Assembly (NCBI RefSeq): GCF_016756745.1
Contig: NZ_JAESIH010000043.1
Coordinates: forward strand, 1 to 64,000
DNA length: 64,000 nucleotides
Reading direction: 5' to 3'
Source of the DNA: Aminivibrio sp.
GTDB taxonomy: Bacteria > Synergistota > Synergistia > Synergistales > Aminobacteriaceae
The first letter of the stretch is position 1. Every line of letters starts with the position of its first letter. The notes under the pieces were generated by a model. It had not been told where the DNA came from, searched no databases, and worked only from the letters and a program-made list of their open reading frames with translations. A program made the translations under genes and the position numbers. Shown one piece after another: positions 17,051 through 51,536 of the stretch.

Positions 17051-17064
17051 CCGGAGAAGGGACC

Positions 17065-17123
17065 CTAAATCCGCAGGTTTTTCAGGCAGAGGGAGTGTCA
17101 CCGATGCCTGCGGATTTAGGGGG
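17065..17123. repeat. Mini-derivative of the palindromic element, copy B
   Basis: Only 59 bp, with perfect 15-bp terminal inverted repeats (CCCTAAATCCGCAGG and its complement). Inside is CAGGCAGAGGGAGTGTCACCG, the short join seen near both ends of full copies. It looks like an internal deletion derivative. It also forms a hairpin just after the transglycosylase stop. Confidence 0.8.
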
Positions 17124-36750: not shown

Positions 36751-36799
36751 AAGTAACAGGGAGAGCAGAATTATTCCCCGAAAAAGAATAGGCCTTCGA

Positions 36800-36911
36800 C
36801 CTGCACAGTCTCACGAAGATTCTGCAGGCACTGGGTCCGGAAAGCGATTTCCAGACCTGCCGAGTTTGCAAAGGAGGATCAGCCGGCTTCAGCCGGTGGT
36901 CCTCCTTTTTT
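36800..36911 (+). ncRNA. Structured AOR leader with terminator (candidate riboswitch)
   Basis: Three helices lie in series before the AOR gene. Hairpin 1 is 36800-36828 (CCTGCA/TGCAGG, extended after one mismatch). Hairpin 2 is 36833-36858, GGGTC-GGAAA closed by a GCGA tetraloop. The third is a strong composite terminator, 36870-36911 (AAAGGAGGA/TCCTCCTTT enclosing CCGGC-TTCA-GCCGG, then T-run). The leader, GNRA loop and terminator are seen directly. That it senses molybdenum/tungsten cofactor, as Moco-type riboswitches do, is inference from the downstream enzyme. No peptide with diagnostic codons was found in it. Confidence 0.6.
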
Positions 36912-36965: not shown

Positions 36966-38765
36966 ATGGACAAGTTCGGCAAAGTACTGCGCATCAATCT
37001 CTCCAACGGAACCGTCGCGAGGGAGGAGCTCTGCGAAAAGACTCTGAAGGACTACATCGGGGGCCGAGGATACGCCACGAAGGTGCTTTACGATGAGCTC
37101 CCCATCGGCACTGATCCTCTCTCCCCCGAGAACAAGCTCATTTTCGCCAACGGCCCCCTTACCGGCAAGGGAGCTCCCTCCGCCGGACGGTACATGGTCA
37201 TCACCAAGAGCCCTCTCACGGGATACATCGCGAGCAGCAACTCCGGCGGATTCTGGGGAGCCGAGCTCGCCAGGGCGGGCTGGTTCATGATCATTCTTGA
37301 GGGCAAGGCCCCCAAACCCACCTACATCTGGATCAACGACGACAAGGTGGAGCTTCGGGACGCCGCCGCCGTCTGGGGCAAGGATAGCCACAAGGCCACC
37401 GATGCCCTTCTCGAGGCCGTGGGTGATCCCAAGGCGAAGGTCACCTGCATCGGCCCTGCCGGTGAAAGGCTCTCGAAGATCGCAGCCGTCATGAACGACA
37501 AGAACCGTGCTGCCGGCCGCAGCGGCGTCGGTGCCGTCATGGGCTCCAAGAACCTCAAGGCGATCGTGGTCAGGGGCAGCGCCCGTCCGTACGTTGAAAA
37601 CCAGGACGAGATGAAGGCCGTCCTCGCCGGGGCCATGGAAAAACTGAAGACCAACCCCGTCACGAGCCAGGGCCTTCCCACCTATGGAACGGCAGTCCTC
37701 GTGAACATCATCAACCAGCTCGGCGCTTACCCCAAGAACAATTGGCAGGGAGCCTACTTCCCCGAGGCGGACATCCAGTCCGGCGAAACTCTCGCCAAGA
37801 ACTTCCTCACCAAGAGATACTCCTGTTTCGGCTGCCCCATCGGCTGCGGCCGGGTCACCAAGGTCGGAGACCGCGAAGGTGAAGGGCCTGAGTACGAGAC
37901 CATCTTCGCCTTCGGCGTCTGCTGCGGCGTCAAACGGCTCGAACCCATCATCGAGGCCAACTATCTCTGCAACGAATACGGCCTCGACACCATCAGCGCG
38001 GGCGTCACCATCGCCGCCGCCATGGAGCTCTACGAAAAGGGATTGATCAAAAAGGAAGAACTGGAAGGCGGCCCCGAACTTCGCTTCGGCAACGAAGACG
38101 CCGTCACCTACTGGACGAAAAAGATGGGTCTCGTGGAAGGGCTCGGCAAGAAACTCGCCGAGGGCTCCTACAGGCTGTGCGAAATGTACGGCCATCCCGA
38201 GTTCTCCATGACGGTCAAGAAGCAGGAGATGCCCGCCTATGACGGACGGGTCATCCAGGGAATCGGCCTGAACTACGCTACGTCAAACCGGGGCGGATGC
38301 CACGTGAGAGGCTACACCATTTCCCTCGAAGTCCTCGGCCTGCCCGAGAAACTCGACCCGGTGGACATCAGCACGAAACCCACGTGGGTCATGATTTTCC
38401 AGAACCTCTCAGCGGCCATCGACGCTTCCGGCGTATGTCTCTTCACCTCCTTCGCCCTCGGAGCGGACGATTACGCAGCGTTCCTCAAGGCAGCCACTGG
38501 TTTCGATTATGACGGCACCGCGGTCCTGCAGGCAGGAGACCGCATCTGGAACATCGAACGGATGTTCAACCTCCGGGAAGGCCTCGATCCTGCGAAGGAA
38601 GACACCCTGCCCGACAGGCTGCTGAAAGAACCCGTTCCCGACGGCCCCGCAAAGGGAATGCTCAGCCGCCTTCCCGAAATGATGCCCGAGTATTATAAGG
38701 CCCGCGGATGGGATGAAAAGGGCGTTCCCACCGATGCCAAGCTCCAGGAACTGGGACTGAGGTAA
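36966..38765 (+). CDS. aor: Aldehyde:ferredoxin oxidoreductase (tungstopterin enzyme)
   Basis: A 599-residue cytoplasmic enzyme that oxidises aldehydes to acids with ferredoxin as acceptor, useful for 2-oxoacid- and amino-acid-derived aldehydes. The 4Fe-4S ligands are Cys287, Cys290 and Cys294 (CFGCPIGC) and Cys491 (GVCLF). The N-terminal domain has YIGGRGYATKVLY and the GPLTG and SNSGGFWG segments that wrap the bis-pterin. The length is normal for AOR/FOR. AAGGAGG is 8 nt before the ATG. Transcription is probably controlled by the upstream leader. No dedicated ferredoxin gene adjoins it, unlike the second AOR at 49388. Confidence 0.93.
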   Translation: MDKFGKVLRINLSNGTVAREELCEKTLKDYIGGRGYATKVLYDELPIGTDPLSPENKLIFANGPLTGKGAPSAGRYMVITKSPLTGYIASSNSGGFWGAELARAGWFMIILEGKAPKPTYIWINDDKVELRDAAAVWGKDSHKATDALLEAVGDPKAKVTCIGPAGERLSKIAAVMNDKNRAAGRSGVGAVMGSKNLKAIVVRGSARPYVENQDEMKAVLAGAMEKLKTNPVTSQGLPTYGTAVLVNIINQLGAYPKNNWQGAYFPEADIQSGETLAKNFLTKRYSCFGCPIGCGRVTKVGDREGEGPEYETIFAFGVCCGVKRLEPIIEANYLCNEYGLDTISAGVTIAAAMELYEKGLIKKEELEGGPELRFGNEDAVTYWTKKMGLVEGLGKKLAEGSYRLCEMYGHPEFSMTVKKQEMPAYDGRVIQGIGLNYATSNRGGCHVRGYTISLEVLGLPEKLDPVDISTKPTWVMIFQNLSAAIDASGVCLFTSFALGADDYAAFLKAATGFDYDGTAVLQAGDRIWNIERMFNLREGLDPAKEDTLPDRLLKEPVPDGPAKGMLSRLPEMMPEYYKARGWDEKGVPTDAKLQELGLR

Positions 38766-38807
38766 GACCGGCTGACAGGGGGCTCTCCCACGGAACCGGG
38801 GGAACCC

Positions 38808-39088
38808 CCTGAATCCGCTAATTTTTCAGGCAGAGGGAGCGTCGCCGGGCATACGGTGAATTCGCCCTCCCCAGGGGCGAAGAGATCTCGCTCCGCGCTC
38901 CTTGCGGAGAGGCCCCTGGGGGAGGGCGCCTGAGGTGAGAGAAACCGACACGGATGTCGGTTTCACAGGCAGGCAGCCGGCGAAAGCAGGGAGCCGCGGA
39001 ACTCGCTTGGGCAGTTGTCAAAGGCGACAATCTGCACCCCCCGCCCAAGCGAGTTCCGGTGACGCTCCCGCTGAGGTGCGGATTCAGG
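38808..39088 (+). repeat. Palindromic element, copy E (longest)
   Basis: 281 bp with terminal inverted repeats CCTGAATCCGC and GCGGATTCAGG. In order: GGGAGCGTCGCCGGGCATAC, GGTGAATTCGCCCTCCCC with a paired GGGGGAGGGCGCC, the AACCGACA...TGTCGGTT hairpin, and a GAACTCGCTTGGGC/GCCCAAGCGAGTTC stem enclosing TTGTC/GACAA. No ORF of note. It sits 42 bp after the AOR stop. Confidence 0.9.
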
Positions 39089-39124
39089 TCTTCATTTCAA
39101 TGTGGATTTTTTCGCCTTTTCAGT

Positions 39125-39213
39125 TATAATGATCGTACCTCTCTGGTGACGGGTTGTGCCTTCCTAAACACTACCTTACCACTGTTCTCCGAACAGTCCA
39201 GAGAGGTTTTTTA
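39125..39213 (+). ncRNA. Candidate small structured RNA with own promoter and terminator
   Basis: Perfect TATAAT at 39125-39130 (weak -35 TGTGGA). A 10-bp closing helix follows: ACCTCTCTGG at 39137-39146 pairs with CCAGAGAGGT at 39198-39207, and T6 comes next. Inside are GGTTGTG/CACTACC (about 39152-39175, one mismatch) and CTGTTC-TCC-GAACAG (39182-39196), which gives a three-way junction. There is no ORF. It could be a riboswitch-like or trans-acting RNA of about 75 nt. It ends before an independent moaD promoter. I do not recognise a known RNA family. Confidence 0.55.
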
Positions 39214-39220
39214 TTTTTTA

Positions 39221-39235
39221 GGGTGCGGATTCAGG
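39221..39235 (+). repeat. Palindromic element end fragment
   Basis: GGGTGCGGATTCAGG, the right terminus of the element family, follows directly after the small RNA's terminator. The small RNA thus lies between a full copy (E) and this stray end. Confidence 0.6.
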
Positions 39236-39249
39236 GGGCCCTTTCACTC

Positions 39250-39278
39250 TTGTAAAACCCTCCGTTTTCGGATATCAT
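39250..39278 (+). promoter_or_regulatory. Promoter of moaD placing the start at the AUG
   Basis: TTGTAA (39250-39255), 17-nt spacer, TATCAT (39273-39278). Transcription would begin at about 39284-39286, that is, at the ATG of moaD. Confidence 0.55.
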
Positions 39279-39557: not shown

Positions 39558-39616
39558 CTCTCCCGCTTTGCCGGCGTAACAACCTGCCGGAACCACCCTG
39601 CAAAGGAGAAAACCAG

Positions 39617-40648
39617 GTGAAAAGGCCCGTCGAGCTTACCGATCTCCTGCGGTACCGCATTTTTTTTGTGCCCGAATTTTCCCCTGACGGCAGCACCGTC
39701 TGCTTTTTCGTCCACCAGGCCGACTAAGACAACAACGGCTACACGTCCAATCTCTGGATGTACGACCTTGTTTCAGACTCCCTCCGGCAACTGACGTCCT
39801 CGGGCAGGGAGAAAGCCTTCGAGTGGATGCCCGACGGTCGTTCAGTCCTCTTCTCCAGCGGCCGGAACGATGCGAAAAGACGGAAACGGCCCTCTACGTC
39901 ATCGACATCTCCGGCGGAGAGGCTGCGCACCTCCGCACCCTGCCGAGAGCCCTGTCCTCCCTCTCCCCCCTGGCCGACGGTTCCCAGATCGCCCTGGGCG
40001 TGGACGCCCCCCTTCGAGAACCCCTACGATGCGGACATGCATGCTGTTCTTCGACCAGGTCCCCTTCTGCTCCAACGGCAAGGGCAACGGCTTCGACGAC
40101 ATCAGGGGAAAATACGGTACCGTGGACTACGACGACCTTATGACCTTTACCGACTGGATCGTGGACAACATACCCTTCGTGGACGGAGAAAAACTTGCAG
40201 TTACAGGCGGATCCTACAGAGGCTACATGACAAATTGGATCATCGGCCACACGGACCGCTTCAAGGCCGCCGTCTCCCAGAGGAGCATCAGCAACTGGAT
40301 CTCCAAGATGGGCATCTCCGACATCGGATACTACTTCGTTCCCGACCAGCAAGGGGCCGATATCTGAAGCGACCATGAAAAACTCCGGCGGCACTCGCCC
40401 CTGAAATACGCCGACCGGGCGAAGACCCCTACCCTCTTCATCCATTCCGAGGAGGGCCACCGGTGCGAACTCACCCAGGGACTCCAGATGTTCACCGCCC
40501 TCAAGCTCCACGGCGTGGAGACGCAAATCTGCGTCTTCCGGGGCGAAAACCACGAGCTCAGCCGGAGCGGCCGTCCGAGACCAAGGCTCACCCGCCTGAG
40601 GAAGATGACGGAGTGGTTCGACCGGTTCCTCACCACCGGCGAAGAATA
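39617..40648 (+). pseudogene. Decayed S9 (prolyl oligopeptidase) family peptidase
   Basis: The start looks normal (AAAGGAG, GTG at 39617; beta-propeller opening FSPDGSTVCFFVHQAD). A TAA then follows at about 39725, frames change after 39870, and most of the propeller is gone. The catalytic domain resumes with FTDWIVDNIPFVDGEK and the Ser motif GGSYRGYMTNW, is interrupted by TGA at 40366, then continues with TPTLFIHSEEGHRCELTQGL and ENHELSRSG. Several lesions together exclude a working enzyme. Confidence 0.88.
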
Positions 40649-51207: not shown

Positions 51208-51303
51208 CCTAAGGAACCTCTGAATAAGGTCGATTAATGTGTTAAAAAATCAGATTCTATCGGGTCGCGTGAGGACAAAATATTCTTTTTTCAGAGCTTC
51301 CCT
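51208..51303 (-). repeat. 96-bp AT-rich repeat, copy 2 (inverted)
   Basis: Reverse complement of 47551-47646 with two or three differences. It ends exactly where palindromic element copy G begins (shared CCT), so the two mobile-looking units are nested or abutting. Confidence 0.85.
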
Positions 51304-51536
51304 AAATCCGCACCCCCGCGGAGAGCGTCACGCGGACCGCTTGGCCGGGGGGTGCGGATTGTTGTCCGTGACGACTGCCCAAGGGATCACCGCGGCTCCC
51401 TGCGTTCGCCGGCTGCCTGACTGTGAAACCGACATCCGTGCCGGTTTCTCTCCCCTCAGGCGCCCTCCCCCGGGGAGGGCGAATTCACCGTATGCCCGGC
51501 GACACTCCCTCTGCCTGAAAAGCCTGCGGATTCAGG
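51301..51536 (-). repeat. Palindromic element, copy G
   Basis: 236 bp, reverse to copy E. Starts CCTAAATCCGC, ends GCGGATTCAGG. The CCCTCCCCC...GGGGAGGG part is shorter than in copies D and F. It lies between the 96-bp repeat and the ArsR promoter. Confidence 0.88.

Follow-up and report, generated by a model that had tools for sequence, protein, structure and literature searches.

Several insertion sequences are known in which the start of the transposase gene is also a site of RNA-based control. The RNA-OUT of IS10/Tn10, 69 nt long and produced close to the element's outer end, is antisense to the stretch of transposase mRNA where translation initiates (PMC5006887). In IS200, read-through tnpA mRNAs bury their own Shine-Dalgarno sequence (PMC12594629). 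In ISPpu9 of Pseudomonas putida, the RNA Asr9 is antisense to a leader in which the ribosome-binding site (RBS) is hidden, the -10 box of its promoter overlaps the transposase RBS, and it is reported to stimulate translation, an effect countered by a second RNA, Ssr9 (PMC8450116).

Here, we analysed a 64,000-nucleotide stretch of the Aminivibrio sp. contig (hereafter the window), in which a compact structured RNA upstream of moaD had been pointed out in a first-pass annotation. By its alignment with copies that still carry a transposase gene, this feature is the reverse complement of the 5' leader of an IS1380-family transposase, present in the window as a decayed solo end. Like RNA-OUT, the predicted RNA is a short antisense RNA over the transposase initiation region, near the outer end of the element and covering the Shine-Dalgarno sequence, but it belongs to another transposase family and, in Synergistota, takes the form of a three-way junction with a closing helix that also serves as the terminator stem. 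Its layout is that of art200 and the tnpA leader of IS200, including a predicted Shine-Dalgarno lock in read-through transcripts; again the transposase family differs, and both layers are experimental in IS200, whereas here they are read from sequence. The closest geometry is that of ISPpu9, with the difference that Asr9 is reported to stimulate, whereas repression is what the arrangement of the Synergistota copies leads us to propose. Bacteroides IS1380-family elements of the ISBf12 type share the transposase family and have a similar end (CCTTAATTCCGC), but their leaders contain a different hairpin and do not match our model of the RNA.

Results

A three-way junction followed by a T-run

On the plus strand, TATAAT can be read directly at 39125-39130, and the predicted antisense RNA occupies 39137-39219. 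It is closed by a perfect 10-bp helix, P1, in which 39137-39146 pair with 39198-39207, and contains two inner hairpins: P3 (~39151-39176), which a stem change weakens in the window copy, and P2 (~39181-39197). A T-run, TTTTTATTTTTT, lies directly 3' of P1 (39208-39219) and forms a terminator-like end together with it. For the 72-nt core, the folding energy is -27.8 kcal/mol (z -3.9), with one of 200 dinucleotide shuffles equally good, while a longer stretch that includes the flanks reaches a z of only -2.1; the minus strand forms the same helix, which in the window copy is slightly more stable (-32.0, z -4.6). With a covariance model of the antisense strand, the window copy scores 96.4 bits. 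The coordinates and the fold of the core thus bear out the helix, the two hairpins and the T-run after TATAAT that had been described at first sight.

As to the further claim that the RNA has a promoter and a terminator of its own, TATAAT, P1 and the T-run are all there, but a simple consensus scan calls neither. The putative promoter (39103-39130, plus strand) consists of TGGATT, a spacer of 16 nt and TATAAT, and its -35-like hexamer is weak; the terminator escapes the scan because the closing helix is multibranched and lies outside the scan's definition. That the feature lacks coding capacity is true of the plus strand but not of the minus strand, which is the start of a transposase gene. 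An Rfam scan, which the first-pass annotation had proposed, returned no family at 39125-39219, neither at the gathering threshold nor at E<=10; the only relaxed matches were spurious microRNA hits on the neighbouring palindrome. A tRNA or tmRNA identity was also considered, and none was found.

The other strand is the leader of an IS1380-family transposase

A search of the genome itself gave 13 matches, i.e. 12 besides the window copy, and in most of these similarity stops exactly after a terminal repeat, GGTGCGGATTTAGG. On the minus strand of intact copies, the transposase ATG usually lies 8 nt from P1, the preceding Shine-Dalgarno sequence AGAGAGGTG falls within P1, and the terminal repeat CCTAAATCCGC lies beyond; from the ATG, other copies read into MTEKAKKIHIE.... 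The predicted RNA is therefore complementary to the part of the transposase mRNA where translation starts. Open transposase frames span 524 codons in L037, 559 in L038 and approximately 533 in C76, the one intact copy of the same genome, and L037 and L038 match the IS1380-family transposase profiles NF033539 (E 1.1e-58) and PF13701 (E 3.4e-22). The element L037 begins with CCTAAATCCGC and ends with GCGGATTTAGG, ~1.9 kb apart, so it has terminal inverted repeats at both ends. It is these intact relatives that identify the family, since the window copy retains only ~13 codons of the gene and one terminal repeat.

What is left in the window is a solo end on the minus strand (39089-39235), comprising the terminal repeat, the leader and ~13 codons. 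Its terminal inverted repeat, CCTGAATCCGCACC at 39222-39235, corresponds to CCTAAATCCGC of other copies and is the point where similarity between copies stops. The Shine-Dalgarno region of the transposase mRNA (39136-39146) lies inside P1. Comparison with L009 and intact copies reveals that in the transposase stub (39089-39127) the ATG has become ATA, one base is deleted and the frame is cut after ~13 codons, where a palindromic element begins; two further copies share this arrangement of a stub abutting a palindromic element. The apparent TATAAT overlaps the transposase start codon. Most intact copies have CATAAT at this place, the antisense of ATTATG, and the window copy reads TATAAT because its start codon has mutated to ATA. 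No target duplication was seen at the window elements or, by eye, at L037.

While the transposase can no longer be made from the window copy, the RNA may still be, and the solo end does retain TATAAT and a perfect closing helix after the destruction of the gene. This would fit a scenario in which solo ends are kept as anti-transposon genes, their surviving antisense RNA silencing remaining or incoming IS1380 elements in trans; we regard this as a long shot.

Distribution and covariation

The covariance model was built on the antisense strand from nine close copies, and the remaining copies were aligned to it. With this model, the RNA was found in 42 of the 183 genomes of the order (Synergistota), spread over six families. 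It also occurs in congeners and elsewhere in the order, contrary to the possibility, left open at the outset, that it is confined to this genome. A second, partial copy lies near the first in L035 of G002 (711-772, 25.6 bits). Neither two Bacteroides IS1380-family loci nor 13 viral contigs that share a 17-base motif matched the model. Two loci on Bacteroides plasmids, L145 and L146, have a strong and different hairpin upstream of IS1380-family transposases (in L145, CCTGAGCAAC...GTTGCTCAGG), and other branches of IS1380 may own distinct leader structures. Contig starts inside the repeat, considered as a common element boundary, were judged to be an assembly artefact because the contigs start ~126 bases ahead of the unique flank, which is what a constant k-mer overlap would produce.

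The three-way junction covaries. In an alignment of 75 distinct copies, pairing holds in 87% of cells, and changes on both sides are seen in 20 of the 26 pairs, with covariation in P1 and P2; the covariation score was reached by none of 500 shuffles and is also far above those of slid registers. Such a conserved fold at an insertion-sequence end could also point to an RNA on which the transposase depends as a guide or for structure. This we hold to be very improbable: DDE transposases, to which those of IS1380 belong, act on terminal inverted repeats without a guide, and the RNA covers the Shine-Dalgarno sequence and the start codon, as an antisense regulator should.

Which strand is the RNA

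As a palindrome looks alike on both strands, we used wobble pairs to tell them apart, a G-U on one strand being a C-A on the other. Among the open-frame copies (19 distinct, several of them read only as far as the end of a contig), we count 18 wobbles that are G-U on the antisense strand against two on the sense strand; the copies are related, so these are not 20 independent events, and they reduce to seven versus two distinct classes. The two kinds are almost balanced in decayed copies (28 and 24). The sequences were aligned by fitting them to the antisense-strand model, and P1, which is nearly gapless, is where the wobble counts should be least affected by this. In addition, 19 of 20 open-frame copies have at least five T in eight positions beside P1. 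Folding energies do not decide between the strands, the antisense strand being the better one in 12 of 18 comparisons (p 0.12, not significant).

These data bear on a simpler explanation, namely that only the sense strand matters: the leader palindrome would bury the Shine-Dalgarno sequence in read-through mRNA, and the plus-strand RNA would be its untranscribed mirror image. The device is known from IS200, the Shine-Dalgarno sequence does sit in P1, and the sense strand folds about equally well, but the wobbles of open-frame copies are G-U on the antisense strand by 18 to two, and the conserved T-run after P1 serves no obvious purpose on the sense strand. We thus consider the sense-only explanation unlikely. 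Together, the wobble bias and the conserved T-run indicate a real antisense RNA, and the structure seems to have been selected on that strand; the plus-strand RNA is thus probably a genuine antisense RNA. Upstream of it, most open-frame copies have a CATAAT-like box, mostly preceded at 17 nt by TGG- or TTG-type hexamers (spacing judged by eye), with the qualification that the conservation of both boxes is confounded by their overlap with coding sequence and the Shine-Dalgarno spacer.

Palindromic elements and the moaD locus

The stub abuts a palindromic element (38808-39088) that has the same ends as the IS1380 element. Both share CCTRAATCCGC, a pattern that occurs 312 times in the genome as compared to 15 times for the reversed control pattern. 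The palindromic elements are very abundant in the genome, with others in the window at 17064-17120 and 51301-51536, and are probably miniature elements mobilised by the transposase of the IS1380 element. The suggestion that the RNA is a passenger of that element family is right insofar as it belongs to a transposon with the same ends; the palindromic elements themselves, however, rarely carry it, and ~40 places in the genome match the palindromic element only, without the RNA. Left of the RNA copy in L010 (G000:C49), a small palindromic element is nested in another element and has CCGG on both sides, which by eye looks like a 4-bp target duplication.

The RNA lies 66 bases before moaD, and it had been proposed as a riboregulator of pterin genes. 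We give a role in the control of moaD or other pterin genes almost no credence. In the congener G001, only 31 bases, with a terminator-like hairpin but without the insertion, separate the match to the upstream gene from that to moaD, while the same two points are separated by ~460 bases in the window and by a gap of ~54 bases in G002, indicating that the element pair at 38808-39235 is an insertion of this lineage and not a part of pterin regulation. Elsewhere, copies of the RNA occupy many different places. The RNA ends in a T-run, and moaD has, as had been noted, a separate promoter-like pair downstream, which the consensus scan finds at 39250-39278. At 38760-38812 and 39235-39250, the insertion sits where G001 has the terminator-like hairpin after the upstream gene, and may have split that terminator. 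Two other features were observed nearby: a molybdenum/tungsten cofactor riboswitch (Rfam RF01055, 40.9 bits) at 36782-36892 on the plus strand, upstream of the gene whose end is at ~38765, and, after moaD, what looks by eye like a broken peptidase gene with in-frame stops (39610-40560).

Discussion

The conserved position of the RNA on the strand opposite the transposase start, its covarying fold and its conserved U-run lead us to propose, with reasonable confidence, that intact elements make a ~75-80 nt antisense RNA of the transposase leader that represses the transposase. The antisense promoter would overlap the first transposase codons, and the RNA would start on the complement of the Shine-Dalgarno sequence, fold as a three-way junction and stop at the closing helix and U-run. 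By pairing with the transposase mRNA across the ribosome-binding site it would keep transposition low, and repression would grow with rising copy number. A second layer may protect against transcription from outside the element, as a read-through mRNA would carry both arms of P1 and could bury its own Shine-Dalgarno sequence.

The same RNA could instead activate the transposase by opening an inhibitory leader, as Asr9 is reported to do in ISPpu9, whose geometry is very similar down to the overlap of the antisense promoter with the RBS (PMC8450116). We infer repression rather than stimulation because the Synergistota RNA appears to start on the complement of the Shine-Dalgarno sequence, so that a full duplex would cover that site; activation therefore strikes us as distinctly unlikely.

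Antisense RNAs to transposases are well known as a kind, and it is the family and the fold that appear to be undescribed. We found no paper on an antisense RNA of IS1380 in the literature searched, which covered few subscription journals. On a practical matter, the locus is a caution for annotation, as what looks like an 'sRNA with its own promoter' next to a gene may turn out to be the leader of a transposon seen from the opposite strand.

We believe that these results add a covariation-supported RNA family without an Rfam match, tied to IS1380 transposases across Synergistota. In it, a single palindrome appears to act as RNA fold, terminator and ribosome-site lock. Repression by this RNA would mean that antisense RNAs control transposases in one more DDE family and in bacteria beyond the usual models.
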